NCBI GenBank assembly: GCA_014650475.1
Contig: BMVA01000002.1
Location: 1 to 64,000, forward strand
Reading direction: 5' to 3'
DNA: 64,000 bases
From: Streptomyces albogriseolus
Lineage (GTDB): Bacteria > Actinomycetota > Actinomycetes > Streptomycetales > Streptomycetaceae
This document shows, one piece after another, positions 4,744 to 26,820 of the stretch (the stretch's first letter is position 1; every line of letters begins with the position of its first letter). The position numbers and the translations under genes are program-made. Under the pieces are notes generated by a model, which saw only the letters and a list, made by a program, of their open reading frames with translations, was not told the origin of the DNA and made no database searches.

Positions 4744-7698
4744 TCACCCGCGGACGGCGGCCAGCGCCTTCCTCAGCAGAGCCGCCCGGTCGGCCGCCGA
4801 GGCGAGGTGCTCCAGGCCGAAGCCCAGCAGCACGGTGTCCTCCGTGGTGACCGCCGCGTACGTCCGGAACAGCTCCCCGGTGCGGGTCCAGTCCTTCAGC
4901 ACGGCCGGGCTGCCCGGGGGCGGTCCGGAGGCCCGCCAGGCGCCCAGGGACTCCTCGAAGCCCTCGGTCTCGGTCACGGTCCCTCCCACGACCAGCGAGG
5001 CCTCGTCGGCGAGGACGCCCCGGCCGCCGCTGCCCGGGTCGGTGACGTAGGCGACCGACACCTCGGCCGTCCGGCCCGCGTAGGCGCTCAGGTCGAACTC
5101 CACCTGCTGCCAGCCGCCGGAGGACCCGGTGAGGCTGTTCCAGGCGCCGGTGGTGCCGGTGGCCGCGCAGCCGTCGCCGCCGAGGGTCAGGTAGTGCTCC
5201 AGCCAGGGGTGCCCGGCGAGGTAGAACCCGGCCGCGCACTCGGACGGCACGGTGGTGCGGGTGGCGCCGCCCGCCTCGGGCAGCGTCGTCCAGTCGTCGC
5301 CGCCGGCCGTGCGCGCCTCGACGATCACGTTGTCGTAGCCCGGCTCGGTGTCCCACAGCAGACGGGTGCGCAGCGTGGGCCGCTCGGCGGCGGTGACACC
5401 GGTGAGGTCGACGGTGCGGGTGAGGCGCTTGTAGCCGTCGTCGGTGTGCACGGCGGCCGCCGTGAAGGAACCCGCGTAGGGCCCGTACGGGTTGACCGTG
5501 CCGGTGAACGACCCGGCGCCGGCGCTCGCGAACTGCGGGTACGTGGCGGGCGGCAGCTCGTCGGAGGTCAGGGCGTAGCTGCCGGGCCGGTCGAGCGGGT
5601 TCCCGGGCGCGTCGCCGAGCGGCCCGCCGGTGCCGGAGAGGCGTCCGGCGCCGGTGAACGCGGTGGCGCCGGAGGTGGCGGTGCGGGAGTAGGCGCCCAG
5701 GTAGTACTGGCTGAAGTCGTCGGACAGGACGCCGTCGCCGAGGTCGACGCTGCCACCGGCCTGCTCGCCCGCCTCGATCAGCCGGCCGCCCTCGTTGAGG
5801 TGGGCCCGCAGCTGGAGCTGGGTGGCGACGCCCGGGACGGCCGCCCCGGTGTGGTGGACGACGGTGCGGAAGTGGCTCAGCACGCCGAGCGCGTCCGGCG
5901 CGCCCTTCTCGGCCACGTCCCAGACGGCGGCGCTGCGGCCGTTCGCCCGGAGCGCGTCGAGGTAGGTCTTCGTGCCCGTGGCCTTCGCGCCCTCCTCGGA
6001 CACGAGGAGGACGTCCGCGCGGGGCCGCTCGGCCACGGTGTAGGCGAAGGGCTTGCTCGACGCCTTCTTGCCGCCGCGGGCCTTGCCGGTGAACCACACC
6101 TCGACCCGGTCGCCGGGCTCCCCGTGCCGGACCTTGGCGCGGTACTCGTCGAAGTAGAGGTCGTCCTCGCCGCCGTAGCGCTCGCCGCCCCGCCAGGGCC
6201 GGAGGTCCGCGCTGTGGGTGCGGCCGCCGTTGACCCGGTACCGCAGCTCCTTGTCGCGCACCGCCTTGCGGGCCACGACGGAGACCTCCTGGTCCTCACC
6301 GCGCGCGTAGGACGTCGTGAAGGCCGCAGGGGTGAAGTCCGCGGCCTCCAGGCCGACCGCGGAGGACGGCCGGTCGGGGTGCGCGGCGCTCTCGGCGACG
6401 GAGAGCGCGAACGGGACGTTCTTGGCGAACTCCTGCTGGATCAGCTTCTCGTCGTCCGGGAAGGTGAAGATCGAACGGCAGTCGCCGGGCTCCCAGGCGT
6501 CGTCGGGGTCGTACGCGGAGGCGGTCTGACAGGTCGACATCTCCGGGGTGAACATCGCCATGCCGTTGACGTTGGCCGCGTGCCCGTCGGCCTCGCCGTT
6601 GGTGGTGTACAGCTCGGAGGAGAGCTGCGGGTGGTAGCCGGGGATCGCCGAGTTGTCCGGCGTGCCCGCGAGCGCCTTGTACAGCACGTCGTCGGGGGTC
6701 GGCGTGGCCACCTGCCAGCCGACCCCGTAGAGGAGCAGCTCGGCCGCGGAGTGGTAGTTGATGCCGTAGGTGAAGCCGATGCGCCTCTGGAAGGCGTCGA
6801 TCGCCTTGGTCTCGGGCTCGGAGCCCGGGGAGGCGCCCCGGTAGGTCTGGCTGGAGGGGCTGGGCGAGGAGCCCTCGTCGTCGTAGCCCCACTTGTAGGG
6901 GAAGTTCCGGTTGAGGTCGACACCGTCGCCGGAGCCGATCTTCCCGTCGCCGTTGACGTCCCGCAGGTTCTTGCGCCACAGGCGGTTCGCGTCGTCGGCG
7001 AACGTGTAGTCGTATCCGTCGGGGTTGGCGGAGAGGACGAACCACAGCTCGGTGGTGTCGACGATCCGCTTGATCCGCCTGTCGGTCCGGTAGCGGTCCA
7101 GGTAGTGGTGCATCAGCCGGCGGGTCATCTCCGGCGTGATCCACTCACGGGCGTGCTGGTTGGCCATGTAGAGGACGGCCGGCCGGGAGCCGTCCTTGCT
7201 GGTGCGGGCGTGCTTGGTGAGCTTCAGGGCGAGGATGTCCTTGCCCTGGATCGTCTTCCCGATGGAGACGACCTTGGTGAGGGAGGGGTTGCGCTGCGCG
7301 GTGCGCAGGATCTCCTCCTTGAGGCCGCCCGTGCCGCTGTACGGCCGGAACACGCCCTCGGCGGCGTCCGCCACGCGCTTCTCGGCCCGGGCGGGAAGCG
7401 TGTGCTCGGTGAGGTCGACGCCCTGTTGCTCCAGCTTCCGGGCCTGGCCCTCGGTGAGGTACACCTCGACGGCGGCCGTGCCCCGCTCGGGCACCCGCTC
7501 GCCGAGTTCGTGACCGTCCTGCCCCGCCGCCAGCAGCAGGGGTACCTGCTGCCGTGTGACGTCGGCGCGGTAGACCTTGACCTCGCCGGGATCACCGGGC
7601 GAGGGCGGTGCGGGCTGTGCCTGGGCGACAGGTGCGAAGCCGGCTCCGCCGAGCAGGAGCGTGCCGACAGCGAGGATCGATCTCGCTCTTCGTCTCAT
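4744..7698 (-). CDS. Secreted zinc carboxypeptidase, M14 family, multidomain
   Basis: The 984-residue protein has a signal peptide (MRRRARSILAVGTLLLGGAGFAPVAQAQ), a propeptide-like region and an M14 carboxypeptidase domain at about residues 125-430. Visible zinc motifs are NQHAREWITPE with the HxxE ligand pair and the downstream NYHSAAELL histidine. The substrate-binding region has LSANPDGYDYTF and DLNRNFPYKWG. The catalytic glutamate is in FTPEMST. The remaining ~550 residues look like extracellular beta-sandwich and immune-inhibitor-like accessory domains. It would trim C-terminal residues of extracellular proteins. The ATG at 7696-7698 follows an AGGGGGG ribosome-binding site and places the signal peptide correctly; an upstream in-frame ATG does not. 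Confidence 0.9.
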   Translation of the reverse strand: MRRRARSILAVGTLLLGGAGFAPVAQAQPAPPSPGDPGEVKVYRADVTRQQVPLLLAAGQDGHELGERVPERGTAAVEVYLTEGQARKLEQQGVDLTEHTLPARAEKRVADAAEGVFRPYSGTGGLKEEILRTAQRNPSLTKVVSIGKTIQGKDILALKLTKHARTSKDGSRPAVLYMANQHAREWITPEMTRRLMHHYLDRYRTDRRIKRIVDTTELWFVLSANPDGYDYTFADDANRLWRKNLRDVNGDGKIGSGDGVDLNRNFPYKWGYDDEGSSPSPSSQTYRGASPGSEPETKAIDAFQRRIGFTYGINYHSAAELLLYGVGWQVATPTPDDVLYKALAGTPDNSAIPGYHPQLSSELYTTNGEADGHAANVNGMAMFTPEMSTCQTASAYDPDDAWEPGDCRSIFTFPDDEKLIQQEFAKNVPFALSVAESAAHPDRPSSAVGLEAADFTPAAFTTSYARGEDQEVSVVARKAVRDKELRYRVNGGRTHSADLRPWRGGERYGGEDDLYFDEYRAKVRHGEPGDRVEVWFTGKARGGKKASSKPFAYTVAERPRADVLLVSEEGAKATGTKTYLDALRANGRSAAVWDVAEKGAPDALGVLSHFRTVVHHTGAAVPGVATQLQLRAHLNEGGRLIEAGEQAGGSVDLGDGVLSDDFSQYYLGAYSRTATSGATAFTGAGRLSGTGGPLGDAPGNPLDRPGSYALTSDELPPATYPQFASAGAGSFTGTVNPYGPYAGSFTAAAVHTDDGYKRLTRTVDLTGVTAAERPTLRTRLLWDTEPGYDNVIVEARTAGGDDWTTLPEAGGATRTTVPSECAAGFYLAGHPWLEHYLTLGGDGCAATGTTGAWNSLTGSSGGWQQVEFDLSAYAGRTAEVSVAYVTDPGSGGRGVLADEASLVVGGTVTETEGFEESLGAWRASGPPPGSPAVLKDWTRTGELFRTYAAVTTEDTVLLGFGLEHLASAADRAALLRKALAAVRG

Positions 7699-10908: not shown

Positions 10909-13022
10909 CGCTCCTGCCCCCGTCGTTCGTCCGGGGCGCCCGTGGACACGGGCTCCCCCGGAGAACCCGTCTGCTGCCCGGGCTCTTCCGTGTCATCCAT
11001 GATCTCGCCCGTCGCCGTGTTCACGGCGGGGCCGCCGGGTGCGGCCTGGGCGAGAGCCGCGACGACCGTCTCGGCCGTCTTACGGCCTATGCCCGGAACG
11101 TCACAGATCTGATCGATTGTCGCCGACCGCAGCCGCTTCAACGAACCGAAGTGCTTGATCAGCGCCTGCTTCCGGGTCTCGCCGAGGCCGGGCACCTCGT
11201 CCAGAGGGCTGGAGCGGAAGCGCTTGGCGCGCTTGGCGCGCTGATAGGTGATCGCGAAGCGGTGCGCCTCGTCCCGGATGCGCTGCAGCAGGTACAGGCC
11301 CTCGCTCGTCCGGGGCAGCACCACCGGGTCGTCGTCCCCGGGCAGCCACACCTCCTCCAGCCGCTTGGCGAGACCGCACACCGCGATGTCGTCGATGCCC
11401 AGCTCGTCCAGCGCCCGCTGGGCCGCCGCGACCTGCGGCGCGCCGCCGTCCACCACGACGAGCTGCGGCGGGTACGCGAACCGCTTGGGGCGCCCGTCGT
11501 CCTCGGTGAGGGTGCTCGCGGGCGGCTCGCCGAGACCCTCGCCGTCCGTCCCCGCCTCCGGCACGGCGCCCGGCTCCGCCACGGCGCCCGGCTCCTCGCC
11601 GTCGGTCCACTCCCCCGTGCGCTCCTTCTCCGCCAGGTAGCGGCGGAAGCGGCGGGTGATCACCTCGTGCATGGACCGCACGTCGTCCTGGCCGGCGAAG
11701 CCCTTGATCTGGAAGCGCCGGTACTCGCTCTTGCGGGCCAGCCCGTCCTCGAAGACGACCATGGAGGCCACGACGTCGTCGCCCTGGAGGTGCGAGATGT
11801 CGTAGCACTCGATCCGCAGCGGTGCGCTGTCCAGGCCCAGGGCGTCGCTGATCTCCTCCAGCGCGCGCGAGCGCGTGGTGAGGTCGGAGGCGCGCTTGGT
11901 CTTGTGCAGCACGAGCGCCTGCTGGGCGTTGCGCTGGACCGTCTCCATCAGGGCCTTCTTGTCGCCGCGCTGCGGGACGCGCAGGGAGACGCTCGAACCG
12001 CGCCGCCCGGTGAGCCACTCCTGCACCGGCTCCACCGGGTCCGGCAGGGCGGGGACCAGCACCTCGCGCGGCACGGCGTCGCCGGTCTCCTCGCCGTAGA
12101 GCTGCTGCAGTGCGTGCTCCACCAGGGCGCCGGTGGTGATCTCCTCGACCTTGTCCGTGACCCAGCCGCGCTGGCCGCGCACGCGCCCGCCGCGCACGTG
12201 GAAGATCTGGACGGCGGCCTCCAGCTCGTCCTCGGCGACCGCGATCAGGTCCGCGTCGGTGGCGTCCGCCAGCACCACCGCGTTCTTCTCCATGGCCTTC
12301 TTCAGCGCGCCGATGTCGTCGCGCAGGCGCGCGGCCCGCTCGTACTCCATGTCCTCGGCCGCCTCCGCCATCTGCCGCTCCAGACGGCGCAGATAGGTGC
12401 CGGTGCGGCCGGCCATGAAGTCGCAGAACTCCTCGGCCAGCTCCCGGTGGTCCTCGGCGGAGATCCGCTCCACGCAGGGCGCCGAGCACTTGCCGATGTA
12501 ACCGAGCAGGCAGGGGCGGCCGGTGCGGGCGGCGTTCTTGAACACGCCCGCCGAGCACGTGCGCACCGGGAAGACGCGCAGCATCAGGTCCACGGTGTCG
12601 CGGATCGCCCACGCGTGCGCGTACGGGCCGAAGTAGCGCACGCCCTTCTTCTTGTGACCGCGCATCACCTGCACGCGCGGGTACTCCTCGTTCATCGTCA
12701 CCGCGAGGTACGGGTAGCTCTTGTCGTCGCGGTACTTGACGTTGAACCGGGGGTCGAACTCCTTGATCCAGGAGTACTCCAGCTGCAGCGCCTCGACCTC
12801 GGTCGAGACCACCGTCCACTCCACGGACGCGGCCGTGGTCACCATCGACCGGGTGCGCGGGTGCAGCCCGGCCAGGTCCTGGAAGTAGTTCGCCAGGCGC
12901 TGGCGCAGGCTCTTCGCCTTCCCGACGTAGATCACCCGGCGGTGCTCGTCGCGGAACCGGTAGACCCCCGGCGAGTCGGGGATCTCACCCGGTCTGGGGC
13001 GGTAGCTGGAGGGGTCGGCCAT
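10905..13022 (-). CDS. uvrC: Excinuclease ABC subunit C
   Basis: The 705-residue protein makes both incisions in nucleotide excision repair after UvrB has marked damage. The domains run in order: GIY-YIG nuclease ([23 protein letters not shown] as two motifs near residues 15-40), a cysteine-rich patch ([13 protein letters not shown]), the UVR motif (about 205-240), an RNase H-like C-terminal nuclease with [11 protein letters not shown] and VVDGG, and tandem HhH motifs ([28 protein letters not shown]). A Glu/Gly-rich insert occurs near residue 475. The start at 13022 is chosen because it begins just ahead of the conserved [16 protein letters not shown]; the longer frame lacks support. It heads the operon. 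Confidence 0.97.
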
Positions 13023-21585: not shown

Positions 21586-22239
21586 ATGACGTACAGCGGG
21601 CGGGTGTCGGTCGGCGGGGCGGCCGACGTGCACGAACTCAAGGACCTGATGATCACCAAGGTCGCGGTCGGCCCCATGGAGAACAACGCGTACCTGCTGC
21701 GCTGCCGGGCCACCGACGAGCAACTGCTGATCGACGCGGCGAACGACGCCGGCACGCTGCTGGGCATGATCGGTGACGACGGCATCGCGTCCGTCGTCAC
21801 CACCCACCGGCACGCCGACCACTGGCAGGCGCTCGCGGAGGTCGTGGCCGCCACCGGCGCCCGCACCTACGCGGGCCGGTACGACGCCGAGGGCATCCCG
21901 GTGCCGACCGACACACCGGTCGACGACGGCGACGTCATCCGGGTCGGCCAGGTCGAGCTCACCGCCCGCCACCTCGTCGGCCACACCCCCGGCTCGATCG
22001 CCCTCGTCTACGACGACCCTCACGGGCATCCCCATGTGTTCACCGGGGACTGTCTGTTCCCAGGGGGTCCTGGTCGGACAACACGGCCGGAGGAGTTCAA
22101 CTCCTTGATGGACGGCCTGGAGACCAAGGTGTTCGACGCCCTGCCCGACGAGACCTGGGTCTACCCCGGCCACGGCAATGACACCACCCTCGGCACTGAG
22201 CGGCCCCACCTCGCGGAGTGGCGCCGACGAGGCTGGTAA
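21586..22239 (+). CDS. Metallo-beta-lactamase-fold hydrolase
   Basis: The 217-residue protein has the metal-binding motif THRHADH (about residues 65-71), a second-metal aspartate in FTGDCLFPGG and a C-terminal YPGHGNDTT histidine, as in glyoxalase II-type MBL hydrolases. The substrate is probably a thioester, perhaps a mycothiol conjugate given the neighbouring gene, but this is inference. The last ~24 codons recur in degenerate form at 26724-26801, next to aroQ. This suggests that the 3' end seen here was brought or rebuilt when the intervening DNA was inserted. Confidence 0.88.
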   Translation: MTYSGRVSVGGAADVHELKDLMITKVAVGPMENNAYLLRCRATDEQLLIDAANDAGTLLGMIGDDGIASVVTTHRHADHWQALAEVVAATGARTYAGRYDAEGIPVPTDTPVDDGDVIRVGQVELTARHLVGHTPGSIALVYDDPHGHPHVFTGDCLFPGGPGRTTRPEEFNSLMDGLETKVFDALPDETWVYPGHGNDTTLGTERPHLAEWRRRGW

Positions 22240-22583
22240 CCATGCGATGACCCCCGCCTCCGTTTCAGCACCGAAGCGAGGAGGCCGCTCTCGGATCGTC
22301 CGCGAGGCCGGCCAGGGCATGGCGCCGCCGAGGCGGACGGCGGGTGAGCCGGATCCGAGCGTCTCCGTGTCGAGCTTCGTGGTGCGGTCATCTGGGGCTG
22401 ATCGCGGCCGTCGGTCGGCTGTTGTGCAGAAGGAGACACGGCTCGGGGAGCCACGATTGCAGCGGGGCTCGGGACAGAAGGACTGGCTCCCCCGGATGGG
22501 ATCTCGGGCCGTGGTGTCATGATGCCGGGTGGTTGGGGGCCGTCATGCCTGGGCGGCCTCGACCTGCCGGTTCGAAGGACTGA
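22240..22583. other. Left edge of the accessory insertion, no gene seen
   Basis: This 344-base stretch has no open frame with Streptomyces codon use and no recognisable transposase or tRNA. A short imperfect repeat (CTGATC-CGGCCGT) near 22398 resembles the sequence over the stop codon of the leftward NACHT gene near 22577. Confidence 0.4.
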
Positions 22584-25500
22584 TCACGGCCGTTTGCCGC
22601 TGCTGACGACCCGGATGGTCAGTCCGGCGATCCTGCGCAGTGCGGACAGGTCGGGCGCGGTCCCGTCGAGGTGCTCGATGGTGAGCTCGGTGAGCGAGGG
22701 GAAGACCCGCGCGAGATCTTCGGTGGAGCCGCATCTGCGCACCCTCCTCAGGGTCAGACGGCGTATCCCCCGCAGAGTTTTGCGTTCCACGGGCTTGTCC
22801 GTGACGAGCAGCGGTTCGTCGAACTCCGGCAGGCCGAACGGGACCGGGAGCCTCAGCGAGTCGATGGCCAGGTCGAGGCTGTTCAGAGCCGGGGCGCGCG
22901 AGGCCGCCAGGAGCACCGAGAGGGCGTCGCAGTCGTCCTGCACGACGAGCTCGCGCAGGGCGGGCCATTCCGACAGGTCGTTGATCACGGTGGTCTTCTG
23001 GCTCGCCACCGTGAGCCTCTCGACCGTCGGGTGCCCGGAGGGCAGGGGGATGTTGCTGTCGAGAAGGGGGCCCGTCACCGACAGGGAGGTCAGCCGGTCG
23101 AGTCGCCGCAGATGGGCCAGCTCGGACTTCTCGATCTCGAAGAGCTCCAGGTCGAGCGAGTCGAGCGGCAGTCCCTCGAGTGCGGACAGCTTCCTGACCC
23201 GCGGGCAGCCCGACAGCGACAGGGAGGACAGCCCGGACAGCTTGCGGACGAAGGAGAGATCGTGCAGCAGGGAGTTGCCCAACACCTTGAGCTGCCGAAT
23301 GCCGCTGTGCGGCAGAATCCTCGCGAGTTCGGCACTGCCGGCGTGCAGATCGAGGGCCACCAGGCCGGTGGGACCGCAGTGCCGCAACGCCGTCGCCATG
23401 GCGGTGGTGACCACGGTCACCATCTCGTTCTCCAGCGACATGTGCGCGAGGACCTCACGAGCGTAGTCCTCCTCCGGGTAGCGCGGCCACGCGTTGATCA
23501 GCAGGCGACGGACGGCGGGTGAGGGGTGCCGGGCGAACCGGCGCAGCAGTGGCAGAGAGGCCGCACCGCCGATGTCGCGGGCCAGCTGGACGACAGCCAT
23601 GGCCTCGGTGTCGTCCAATTCCTCCGGGCCGGGCGCCAGATCGAGGACGTAGGAGCCGAGTGAGGCGAGCTTGGCGGCCGCGGTGGCGTCGGAGGGCGGG
23701 AGCAGTGAACGGATACGGTGCGCGATCCGCTCCCGCACCTCCTCCTCCAGCACCACCGCGCTCAGCGCGCACCGGGCCGCCAGCACATGGATGTCGCCCC
23801 GCGTCCGCGGGTCCACGGCGGTGTCGCCCCTGTCGATCAGCCCCTCGATGAGCCTGCGGATCTCGCCGCGGTTGCAGTGGCCCACGGCCAGCAGGGTGAT
23901 GTCCTGCCATTCCTCCTTGTCCGCGTTCCGCAGCAGCTCGCCCAGGCCGTCGCTCTCCTGGATCTCCTTCGCCGCCAGATAGTCCTGAAAAGTGCGGTGG
24001 ATGAACTGCACGGCGCTCTCGCTGCGTTCTTGGAGCAGCCCGCTGCGGTTGAGCAGATGAGTCAGTACGGCCTCCGGGGAGCCCTGCTTGCGTACCCGCG
24101 GCATGCCGCGCATGGCGAGTTCGATCTGGTGCAGTGCCTGGGCGGGGCTGAACTCGGCGTATCCGCCTCGGGCCAGCCAGGCCGCGATCCGCTGGAGCAG
24201 TTGCTGGTGCTCCTCGACCCCAAGGACGATGCCCTCCGGTGCGCCGACCCTGCGCAGCGTGTCGCGGCTGCCCAGCAGCATGGTGAGCGAGGCGTTGTAG
24301 AGCGACCAGCGGGTCTCCGGCAGGAAGCCCCTCCGGCGCCGGTGCAGCGCGCAGACGACGGCTGCCAGCAGGGGGCTGCGGGAGAGGTGGAGCAGGGTCG
24401 GATTCTGGGCTAGCTCCTGTTCCAGACCGCGTTCCAGGTCGCGGAGGTTCTGGTCCTCCGTGGCGGCCCGGTGGGTGTCGCGGAAACCGGCGCACTCGAG
24501 GCGGGCGGCGGCATGCCAGGCACGGGAGAAGGCCAGGACGTCCTCGTCGCGCATGGGCAGCAGCCGCAGTTCCTCGAAGTTCTCGGCGCTGAGCCAGTCG
24601 GCGGCCACCGCGAGAGGGCGCACGGTGACCAGGCAGCGGTTGTGCGGGTACATCACCAGCAGGTCGGTCAGGCGGCGCCGGGCCTCCTCCCGGTCGGCCG
24701 GCGGAACCTCGTCCATGCCGTCGACGAGGAGAAGGGCCCGGCCCGCCTCCAGGACGCGACGGGCCCACCCTTCGGGGACCCCGTCGATCTGCAGCTCCGC
24801 GACCGTGGCGAGTTCATGGGGCTTGGGGAAGGCCATGCCCCGGGCCGGCAGGCTGCGCATGGGGACGACGAAGGGCACCAGGTGGTTCAGTTCGGCGAGC
24901 TCGTGACCGAGCGCACCGCAGGCGGCGTGCGAAGCGAGCCACCACACCAAGGTGGTCTTGCCGGCGCCGGCCTCGCCGCGCAGCACGGTCCGCGGGCGAT
25001 CGGCGAGGAGTTCGTTGATCCGGCGCGGCGCGGCGACCGATCGGTTCACGGCGGCGTTCTCGCGTGCCCCCGGCGCGGAGATCGCCTCCAGGCTCAGATA
25101 CGCCGTGTCGAGGTCCCAGTTGGTCTCCGTGGTGCCCAGTTCGTCGATGCCGAAGATCTCGATCTTGCGGTAGCGGGCGCGCAGGGCGTGTGCGTAATGA
25201 CGTTCGAATTGCTCGTCGCGGCTGTGGTCGCCGGGTGTCACCGACTCCACGACCGGCGGGATGTGGCCCGGTTCGGCTCCCGCCACATGGTGAGGGAAGC
25301 CCGCTGCCCGGAGCACCTGCTCCACCGGGACCGCCTCGACGCGTCGGTGGCCGCGTCCCCGCGGTATCTGGGTGACCACTCCGATCAGCACCGCGCCGGC
25401 GAACACGGGCGCACCGGACAGCCCGGCCAGGGGTGACTCGCCGGGCGCGGGGTCGGCCACCGGCGCCCGGTCGAACTCGACGACGAGTGTGGATCTGATC

Positions 25501-25829
25501 CGTCCCGCCATGGGCAGCACGGTGCCCGTGAGCTGGTCGTACTCGAGATGACCGGTGGGGCCGAACCGCTGCACGGCGGGAAAGCCGACGACCTGGCAGC
25601 CCGGCAGCGGGTCGGGCGCGCCGAGGGCGCCCCAACGCAGCCTGGGCAGCTCCCACCGCTCGGGGTCCACCAGTTCCTCACCGGTCAGCAGCAGGGCCAC
25701 GTCGCTGTCGTCGTCCCGCCACACGGTGCGCGCGGGCAAGGGCTGTTCGCTCTGCGGATGGACGGCGCGGATCCACTCCTGGCCCCACAGCACATGCGCA
25801 CTGGTCAGGACGAGCCGGGGCGTCAGCAT
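22584..25829 (-). CDS. Trypsin-like/NACHT/LRR conflict-system protein (N-terminus frameshifted)
   Basis: The open frame of 1081 residues holds a trypsin-like serine protease domain (His12 in LTSAHVL, Asp43 in DDSDVALL, Ser138 in GLSGAPV), then a NACHT/STAND NTPase (Walker A GEAGAGKTT at 285-293, Walker B LLLVDGMDE at 367-375), a helical region with HEAT-like units, and a leucine-rich repeat region from about residue 790 to the end. Such proteins sense an intruder through the repeats, oligomerise with NTP and unleash the effector. The natural start is very probably the ATG at 25909-25911, coupled by ATGA overlap to the Trypco2 gene. A 19-bp duplication at 25815-25852 breaks that frame, leaving the ATG at 25827-25829 as the first in-frame start. 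Confidence 0.85.
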   Translation of the reverse strand: MLTPRLVLTSAHVLWGQEWIRAVHPQSEQPLPARTVWRDDDSDVALLLTGEELVDPERWELPRLRWGALGAPDPLPGCQVVGFPAVQRFGPTGHLEYDQLTGTVLPMAGRIRSTLVVEFDRAPVADPAPGESPLAGLSGAPVFAGAVLIGVVTQIPRGRGHRRVEAVPVEQVLRAAGFPHHVAGAEPGHIPPVVESVTPGDHSRDEQFERHYAHALRARYRKIEIFGIDELGTTETNWDLDTAYLSLEAISAPGARENAAVNRSVAAPRRINELLADRPRTVLRGEAGAGKTTLVWWLASHAACGALGHELAELNHLVPFVVPMRSLPARGMAFPKPHELATVAELQIDGVPEGWARRVLEAGRALLLVDGMDEVPPADREEARRRLTDLLVMYPHNRCLVTVRPLAVAADWLSAENFEELRLLPMRDEDVLAFSRAWHAAARLECAGFRDTHRAATEDQNLRDLERGLEQELAQNPTLLHLSRSPLLAAVVCALHRRRRGFLPETRWSLYNASLTMLLGSRDTLRRVGAPEGIVLGVEEHQQLLQRIAAWLARGGYAEFSPAQALHQIELAMRGMPRVRKQGSPEAVLTHLLNRSGLLQERSESAVQFIHRTFQDYLAAKEIQESDGLGELLRNADKEEWQDITLLAVGHCNRGEIRRLIEGLIDRGDTAVDPRTRGDIHVLAARCALSAVVLEEEVRERIAHRIRSLLPPSDATAAAKLASLGSYVLDLAPGPEELDDTEAMAVVQLARDIGGAASLPLLRRFARHPSPAVRRLLINAWPRYPEEDYAREVLAHMSLENEMVTVVTTAMATALRHCGPTGLVALDLHAGSAELARILPHSGIRQLKVLGNSLLHDLSFVRKLSGLSSLSLSGCPRVRKLSALEGLPLDSLDLELFEIEKSELAHLRRLDRLTSLSVTGPLLDSNIPLPSGHPTVERLTVASQKTTVINDLSEWPALRELVVQDDCDALSVLLAASRAPALNSLDLAIDSLRLPVPFGLPEFDEPLLVTDKPVERKTLRGIRRLTLRRVRRCGSTEDLARVFPSLTELTIEHLDGTAPDLSALRRIAGLTIRVVSSGKRP

Positions 25830-25852
25830 GACGCCGGGGCGTCAGCATGACG
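25815..25852. repeat. 19-bp tandem duplication that shifts the reading frame
   Basis: The unit CCGGGGCGTCAGCATGACG occurs at 25815-25833 and again, identically, at 25834-25852, followed by a further CCGG. Because 19 is not a multiple of 3, one extra copy separates the natural start at 25911 from the protease frame. With one copy removed, the upstream frame (ending SQGTGVMLTPR) reads straight into LVLTSAHVLW. Confidence 0.9.
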
Positions 25853-25910
25853 CCGGTGCCCTGCGAGCCGGCCAGGATCGCGACGATCCGGTCAACCGCC
25901 GACCGCAGCA

Positions 25911-26264
25911 TCACGGCGCGGGACGGGTGCCACGGCCGAAGGTGTCGGCGCTGCCCTCTGTCTCGTTGCGGATCTTCAGCGGTGCGCCGCTGCGGGCGTC
26001 CTGCGCCCGCAGGGTGAAGGAGACTCTGTGGGTACGAGTGTTGCCGTACGCAGCGTCCGCAGCCGCGTCGACGACCCAGGCCCGGACCTTCGACCCGGCC
26101 TTGGCCTCCTTGCGGATCTCGACGGTGAACTCCATCTGGATGTCCCCCACTTCGAAGACAACGTCCTGCCCCGTGGAGCGCCGTGCCGCGGTCAGCAGCT
26201 CGTCGCGGATGCTCTGCACGGCGTCCGCGAGCTCGATGTGGGGGTCGTCGTTCGAAGTGCCCAT
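25911..26264 (-). CDS. Trypco2 (trypsin-co-occurring domain 2) protein
   Basis: The 117-residue protein has the Trypco2 pattern: an N-terminal helix (IELADAVQSIRDELLTAARR), then VVFEVGDIQMEFTVEIRKEA and a strand-rich segment ending in THRVSFTLRAQ. Domains of this kind were described as partners of trypsin-like proteases in predicted NTP-dependent conflict systems, as presumed regulatory or sensor modules. A GGGAGGG ribosome-binding site precedes the ATG. Its TGA overlaps the natural ATG of the protease-NACHT-LRR gene, so the pair forms a coupled two-gene operon. Confidence 0.85.
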   Translation of the reverse strand: MGTSNDDPHIELADAVQSIRDELLTAARRSTGQDVVFEVGDIQMEFTVEIRKEAKAGSKVRAWVVDAAADAAYGNTRTHRVSFTLRAQDARSGAPLKIRNETEGSADTFGRGTRPAP

Positions 26265-26723
26265 GAAGTTCCCTCCCGTAACGCGTCAAGGGGCCGGTCC
26301 CCGAAGGTACCGGCCCAACGGGAGACACGTCCGCCGTGTTGGCAGAGTTCTTACCGGCACCCCCAGTTCGTCCCCGACGCGCACCCGTACATCTCGCTCG
26401 GCCACAGGTCGTCACTCCTGCCCGAGCTGACCGGCTGTGACCCCGCAGTAGTCATGCGACCCGGTGCAGGTCGCCTTGGCTTCAGCTCAGGCGGTGGCCG
26501 ACGAGTGCGAGACCGGCAACCGCCGCACGGCGCTGTTGTCGGCCCGCACGTTCGGAGCGGGCGCGGCGCACGGCTTCCGAGAGGTGGCGGACGGCAGTGA
26601 CGTGCCTGCGCTCCCTGCGGTCGACGGTGCGAACGGCGTCCAGTGCGGTGACGTCGGTGAGGCTGGTGCGGTCAGCCGTCCGTCCTCTTCCGGGAGCGTC
26701 GGGACGCCGACGACGGCGGCGCC
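26265..26723. other. Right edge of the insertion, promoter of the conflict operon, no intact gene
   Basis: This stretch must contain the promoter of the leftward Trypco2 operon. An 8-bp inverted repeat (GGGCCGGT at 26291-26298 with 26309-26316) lies 27-52 bases upstream of the start. Rightward frames over 26464-26660 translate without a stop but match no family I recognise, and may be debris of a lost gene. Confidence 0.45.
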
Positions 26724-26801
26724 CACCCGGGCCATGGCCACGACACCACGCTCGGCGCCGAACGCCCCCACCTGCCGGAGTGGCGTGTCCGCGGCTGGTG
26801 A
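26724..26801 (+). pseudogene. Remnant of the 3' end of the metallo-beta-lactamase-fold gene
   Basis: Frame +3 of this segment reads HPGHGHDTTLGAERPHLPEWRVRGW and stops at 26799-26801. It aligns with the end of the intact hydrolase (YPGHGNDTTLGTERPHLAEWRRRGW, stop at 22239). No upstream part of the gene precedes it. It is probably the original chromosomal 3' end, now displaced 4.5 kb by the inserted DNA. Confidence 0.85.
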
Positions 26802-26820
26802 GCGGGCGGCAGGCCCTGCG

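Follow-up and report, generated by a model that had tools for sequence, protein, structure and literature searches.

A Trypco2 gene coupled to a trypsin–NACHT–LRR gene: a candidate NLR-like conflict cassette in Streptomyces albogriseolus

Results

The gene pair and its domains

In the 64,000-nucleotide stretch of Streptomyces albogriseolus DNA that we analysed (positions 1 to 64,000 of contig BMVA01000002.1, assembly GCA_014650475.1; hereafter the window), a short gene for a Trypco2 protein lies directly upstream of a gene for a large protein that joins a trypsin-like protease, a NACHT-type STAND NTPase, helical repeats and leucine-rich repeats (LRRs). The best explanation, which we hold with moderate confidence, is that the pair is a horizontally acquired, NLR-like conflict cassette of two genes, a kind that is common in the genus, with Trypco2 as the partner of the protease.

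The domains are real. The short protein, described as Trypco2 in a preliminary description of this DNA, matched PF19631 with an E-value of 6.5e-25 and 87.6 bits against a curated Pfam cut-off of 24.2, and NACHT was likewise recovered above its cut-off (residues 281–441 of the large open reading frame (ORF), E = 8.2e-21, 75 bits against 26.7). Trypsin and LRR, the other two domains proposed there, scored below the Pfam cut-offs in the window sequence and were secured through the family. Trypsin_2 (cut-off 27.6) reached 19.3 bits in the window copy and 25.4 bits in a close plasmid copy, and it was found in 12 of 13 aligned family members at E ≤ 0.01 (best 4e-9); a profile of these 13 members matched solved LRR structures, internalin among others, at 8.3e-17. 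The region between NACHT and the LRRs gave a weak HEAT_2 match (E = 0.0055, below the cut-off). AlphaFold models of the large protein, built from two sequences, were usable only for about residues 649–1107 of the S. lincolnensis protein (locus L038), where helical repeats are followed by repeated strand-helix units in the C-terminal half, in support of the LRR assignment; the HEAT-like region is all-helical in this model, with a predicted local distance difference test (pLDDT) score mostly of 60–85. NLRC4 and plant NRC2 were among the Foldseek matches to the model, with low TM-scores, and were given no weight. The single-sequence model of Trypco2, a helix and four strands at a pLDDT of 44, was left out of the fold search, and comparison of Trypco2 with the PDB gave no convincing match.

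The catalytic residues of the large protein are invariant. Its trypsin triad and the NACHT Walker residues K291, T292, D370, D373 and E374 were identical in 58 of 58 aligned proteins, namely the window ORF and 57 of 59 relatives, L016 having been dropped for lying at a contig edge and L111 for its broken frame. Judged from its sequence, the protease is thus shown to be catalytically complete. Divergence is graded along the protein: median identity to the window copy was 64% for NACHT, 44% for trypsin and 27% for the LRRs (the last from the 42 proteins with enough coverage, since several aligned rows are cut at locus edges), and the ratio of nonsynonymous to synonymous substitution rates between the window and plasmid copies was 0.12 in residues 186–445 and 0.54 in the LRRs. 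The features expected of a bacterial NLR were therefore found, namely a NACHT with intact Walker motifs, a C-terminal LRR region and an N-terminal effector with a complete catalytic site; a single intact reading frame was absent in this genome owing to a 19-bp duplication. Profile matches, invariant catalytic residues and faster LRR evolution together uphold the NLR-like composition given in the preliminary description. Coordinates are collected in Table 1.

Table 1. Features of the cassette and its surroundings, in window positions
Feature	Position	Strand	Remarks
Trypco2 gene	25911..26264	minus	117 aa; core residues 10–86 and C-terminal tail; PF19631 and 24-sequence alignment
Remaining open frame, trypsin-NACHT-helical-LRR	22584..25829	minus	1081 aa
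Trypsin-like domain	25275..25829	minus	triad His12, Asp43, Ser138 (ORF numbering)
NACHT STAND NTPase	24495..25034	minus	Walker A Lys291, Walker B DGMDE
Helical repeats (HEAT-like), NACHT-LRR interval	23370..23909	minus	weak HEAT_2 match and model
Leucine-rich repeats, fastest-evolving part	22608..23369	minus	family profile, model, identity, dN/dS
Start of the large gene: coupled GTGATG and its first ~28 codons, ~21 of them ahead of the repeat	25830..25914	minus	frame lost through the 19-bp duplication
Perfect 19-bp tandem duplication breaking the frame	25814..25851		units 25814–25832 and 25833–25851
Hairpin-forming repeat ahead of Trypco2, close to the outer limit of cassette homology	26290..26316	minus	window and five relatives aligned
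Insert lacking in relative G027	22242..26724
Conserved MBL-fold hydrolase gene, convergent with the cassette	21586..22239	plus	3' part of other type from ~22000
3' end of the MBL-fold hydrolase gene, second copy	26725..26804	plus	first copy 22162–22241

Distribution and coupling of the two genes

Matches to the large protein occurred in 231 of 295 sampled genomes of the same genus (E ≤ 0.001, trypsin-less relatives counted), and a Trypco2 match in 64 of 101. Orthologues of the large protein at 75–77% protein identity were present in three genomes and in S. lincolnensis L4. A scan of genome contigs found one relative; viral contigs yielded no relatives of either protein, and phages yielded no Trypco2 relative in a search that covered Trypco2 and not the large protein.

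To compare the neighbourhoods we drew two sets from among the matches listed, together with L038 and the plasmid copy: 59 trypsin-type homologues, whose match starts near query residue 1, and 20 trypsin-less NACHT-LRR controls. Trypco2 was directly upstream in 45 of the former and in none of the latter. In all 45 pairs the nearest in-frame start lay within –5 to +6 nt of the Trypco2 stop, and 39 of them have an exact 4-nt overlap; since starts were picked as the nearest ones, these 39 are the telling part. The coupling was also visible from the Trypco2 side. Among the 30 best-scoring Trypco2 loci (one per genome, not a random sample, and partly overlapping the 59 homologues), 22 were followed by an ORF with a BLAST match to a trypsin-STAND reference at E ≤ 1e-3, several of these matches being weak. 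Six plasmid Trypco2 loci precede nSTAND5-TPR proteins, five of which show trypsin motifs by eye and the sixth of which, shorter as annotated, has no trypsin match. One S. aurantiacus plasmid (L144) carries two pairs of Trypco2 and TPR-protein genes about 5.7 kb apart (Trypco2 at 6022–6351 and 11763–12092). At locus L107 (genome G044) a trypsin-type NACHT gene has no upstream Trypco2, and a Trypco2 match (G044:C1:716311) lies about 400 bp past the matched end.

The Trypco2 core is conserved and compact, with F46, E49, A62, W63 and T78 among the residues invariant in an alignment of 24 sequences, and it is common across lineages; the C-terminal tail is lineage-variable. Of the 45 tails encoded upstream of the NACHT-type proteins, 40 contain FG, every one contains a phenylalanine as judged by eye, and not one contains GPGD, a motif carried by all seven TPR-type tails from the six plasmids. 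We then compared distance matrices over 45 gene pairs (44 relatives and the window). Distances in the tail correlated with those in trypsin at 0.76 and with those in NACHT at 0.63; the partial correlation of tail with NACHT given trypsin was 0.06, and that with trypsin given NACHT was 0.55. The core tracked all parts of the large protein except the LRRs about equally. From the co-variation of the tail we predict that it is a ligand or substrate of the protease.

Insertion at a variable site

The cassette was horizontally acquired, and its insertion is recent-looking. Of 121 sampled genomes, G027 is the closest by aroQ (96%); the window is collinear with it at 88–93%, and the sole unmatched stretch longer than 400 bp is 22241–26725. 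In G027 the matches to aroQ and to the metallo-β-lactamase (MBL)-fold hydrolase gene end 28 bp apart, with the cassette absent. A plasmid of S. jietaisiensis (NZ_CP108340.1) carries a stretch 94.3% identical to window positions 22607–26317, with annotated NACHT and trypco2 proteins. This near-identical plasmid copy and the single-insertion synteny agree with the accessory nature ascribed to the cassette earlier, and the accompanying statement that there is no other clear accessory block is true of the comparison with G027, the single relative used for it. Within the insert, a survey of ORFs of at least 90 aa after a codon-composition filter found Trypco2 and the large gene as the only two genes, and no integrase.

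The MBL-fold gene was matched in 121 of 121 genomes at E ≤ 0.001, in G079 at only 41% identity. Up to about 21985 the window's gene is closer to that of G027, and from about 21985 to 22281 it is closer to the type of G108, G013 and G003. From this switch in identity and the second copy of the gene's 3' end we infer that the cassette would have come in through recombination inside the MBL gene at one end and through an illegitimate join at the other. On the Trypco2 side, three relatives share DNA homology with the cassette up to 26316–26322, and a fourth up to 26250. The hairpin near this edge has a TTCG-type loop, is kept in five relatives and may serve the cassette as a terminator or leader.

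Insertions seem to recur at the junction of the MBL gene and aroQ. The two genes are spaced from 28 bp to about 96 kb apart, counting genomes in which an aroQ match of at least 76% identity lies on the same contig as the MBL gene. In G108 and G013 (L070, L071) a similar second MBL 3' fragment is found around unrelated cargo. A defence hotspot was considered and rejected: cargo in four inserts, labelled by eye from sequence without a profile search, was mixed (transporters, an oxidoreductase, regulators, a reverse transcriptase and secreted proteins), so we take the junction as a general insertion spot.

A 19-bp duplication in the window copy

The ATGA overlap between the two genes that had been reported for this DNA did not hold. 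The junction reads GTGATG, in which either GTG overlaps the Trypco2 stop TGA by 4 nt or ATG overlaps it by 1 nt, and the 1081-residue ORF is not reached from this coupled start, whose frame continues for about 21 codons, enters the 19-bp direct repeat and stops at 25678. The 1081-residue ORF opens at an ATG within the repeat, with no ribosome-binding site apparent by eye ahead of it, and lacks a first stretch that holds nearly invariant residues in the 13-member alignment. All 57 aligned relatives have an open frame ahead of the site that corresponds to the repeat, and the plasmid copy is open from the coupled start over 1102 aa. The preliminary description had implied a break by speaking of a repaired operon; the break is real, and its nature, which was left undescribed there, is this duplication. 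Because it severs the large gene from its coupled start, the window copy is probably not functional.

On one reading, to which we give an even chance and which is compatible with our explanation of the family, the window locus is a decaying remnant whose frameshift is fixed and which makes no product that matters in this strain. The frame break, the loss of nearly invariant first residues and the missing ribosome-binding site speak for it. A second Trypco2 match in the same genome (G000, contig 13, 241268–241492; L002, L078), of 50.9 bits, is interrupted by a TGA, and such a stop in the other match also favours a remnant. Against it, the window ORF aligns with the plasmid protein without a gap over 1074 residues, and the window branch, with 23 silent and 12 replacement codons compared with 25 and 17 on the plasmid branch, does not look relaxed in its substitutions. 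Owing to these two observations, the lesion would instead be recent, perhaps reversible, or else an assembly error.

Discussion

By analogy with NLRs and Avs1, the cassette would act in the order LRR sensing, NACHT oligomerisation, protease activation, and action through or on Trypco2. The LRRs and helical repeats would bind a signal of the invader; NACHT would then exchange nucleotide and oligomerise, as expected of the STAND family; and oligomerisation would bring the N-terminal trypsin domains into an active arrangement. Linkage and co-variation support Trypco2 as a dedicated partner of this protease. In what is the weakest step, the trypsin would most likely bind the Trypco2 tail or cut it, and a toxic output would thereby be released or steered. 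The window copy is probably silent at present, or switchable only if the duplication were to collapse by slippage. The preliminary description had cast the LRRs as sensor, the NTPase as switch and the protease as killer. That layout is supported by the profiles, catalytic residues and LRR evolution, but the killer role is one option, and a protease that cleaves Trypco2 or is steered by it would agree no less well with the linkage and co-variation and with the precedent of Avs1 in the accessible part of PMC12799240.

Several known systems resemble the cassette. In Avs1, according to the available text of PMC12799240, a trypsin at the N-terminus of a STAND protein cleaves an upstream-encoded partner on infection; type 1 AVAST there comprises Avs1a, an MBL nuclease, and Avs1b, a protease on STAND. 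An N-terminal trypsin on STAND and a partner encoded immediately upstream are shared with our pair, but here the partner is a Trypco2 protein of about 115 aa and not an MBL-fold pro-nuclease in the same operon, and the NACHT module carries LRRs; the cassette is thus close to the trypsin-STAND part of Avs1, with a different partner. With bacterial NLRs (bNACHT), as described in the portion of PMC12169576 at hand, it shares the NACHT module, LRRs, N-terminal effector and tripartite layout. The effectors there are a DNase or not discernible, in contrast to the trypsin-like protease with a coupled Trypco2 here. Excerpts of PMC7159879 and PMC10907252 place Trypco2 beside trypsin-VMAP systems and diversity-generating retroelement loci. 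Our pair resembles the VMAP/MoxR-vWA ternary systems with Trypco1 or Trypco2 (PMC7159879, same excerpt) in having Trypco2 beside a trypsin-like peptidase, but here the trypsin is fused directly to NACHT-LRR and no further gene of such a system lies in the insert: the filtered survey found the two genes and no MoxR ATPase, vWA or VMAP, and the flanks, which were not searched with profiles, are collinear with G027. The plasmid systems of Streptomyces and Kitasatospora likewise have Trypco2 upstream of a trypsin-STAND-repeat protein (trypsin in five of six), with nSTAND5 and TPR there in contrast to NACHT and LRR here, and a different Trypco2 tail (GPGD). The part of PMC8195603 available mentions trypsin among the effectors of NACHT-clade systems and does not contain the word Trypco. 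We found no title or abstract describing a pair of Trypco2 and trypsin-NACHT-LRR; supplements and most subscription papers were outside this search, and listings may exist there.

A number of observations weigh against a conflict cassette in which Trypco2 serves the protease. First, the window copy is broken. Second, the coupling is incomplete: Trypco2 was not directly upstream in 14 of the 59 trypsin-type homologues (among them one at a contig edge, the orthologue in S. lincolnensis and 8 from the 12 most divergent), and only 4 of those 12, with less than 40% identity, had it there. In S. lincolnensis L4 an open trypsin-NACHT-LRR gene (L038, 5935–9261) has no Trypco2 match in the 15 kb examined, so Trypco2 is not obligatory in cis. 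From the other side, 8 of the 30 best-scoring Trypco2 loci have no trypsin-STAND match next to them, one being the neighbour of the frame-broken L111. Third, the wider set of 30 loci did not bear out a sharp division of Trypco2 tails along receptor type: GPGD was present in only 2 of 7 best-TPR-type loci, and 4 of 15 best-NACHT-type loci, all remote, had tails with neither FG nor such a phenylalanine motif. Fourth, DNA adjacency may be a partial source of the tail-trypsin co-variation, which makes that signal a lead and not a proof. Lastly, PADLOC returned weak matches only (best E = 0.014 over 30 residues), none above cut-off, and NCBIfam models scored far below theirs (antiphage_EruA 10.7 bits against 1000, MarP 16.2 against 250).

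Trypco2 may instead be an adaptor or inhibitor that assembles the trypsin or holds it inactive, with killing done by the activated protease on host proteins; we regard this as a possible but rather unlikely account. Trypco2 is termed an adapter domain in the accessible section of PMC10907252, it pairs with trypsin fused to differing STAND and repeat types, and its conserved core tracks the partner more broadly than the tail does, with a partial correlation of 0.56 with residues 446–640 given trypsin. An obligatory inhibitor, on the other hand, is hard to reconcile with the protease genes that lack an upstream Trypco2 in some genomes, and a lineage-specific tail that tracks trypsin suggests more than a scaffold. 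More tentatively still, Trypco2 might be a pro-effector: after LRR sensing, a NACHT oligomer would switch on the trypsins, the tail would be cut, and the core, shared by NACHT-LRR and STAND-TPR receptors, would be freed as a toxic or signalling unit, with the window copy silenced and perhaps phase-variable.

A role outside conflict is improbable. A regulatory, developmental or stress-response STAND protease would suit how very common homologues are in the genus once trypsin-less ones are included, and the Streptomyces antibiotic regulator AfsR likewise has a nucleotide-binding oligomerisation domain and TPRs, as stated in the available passage of PMC10936776. The patchiness of Trypco2, plasmid carriage, the recent-looking insertion and the fast-changing LRRs nonetheless fit conflict better. 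Finally, an Avs1-type pair of pro-nuclease and protease, prompted by the MBL-fold gene adjoining the trypsin-STAND gene and by the MBL-fold nuclease of Avs1 (PMC12799240, as cited), is contradicted by synteny and orientation, since that gene is conserved across the sampled genus, is found beyond the 3' end of the cassette on the opposite strand and not upstream within its operon, and stands beside aroQ in G027 where there is no cassette.

In the passages of the literature available to us Trypco2, named from gene neighbourhoods since 2020 and in use as a product name on plasmids, is treated comparatively. Since the frame of the window copy is broken, open natural copies are the proper material for experiments. 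The coupled pair of Trypco2 and trypsin-NACHT-LRR, present in many genomes of the genus and on a plasmid, offers a compact system for NLR proteolytic signalling and for the role of Trypco2; if Trypco2 were indeed a pro-effector, the pair would amount to a proteolytic cascade of two proteins under the control of a bacterial NLR.

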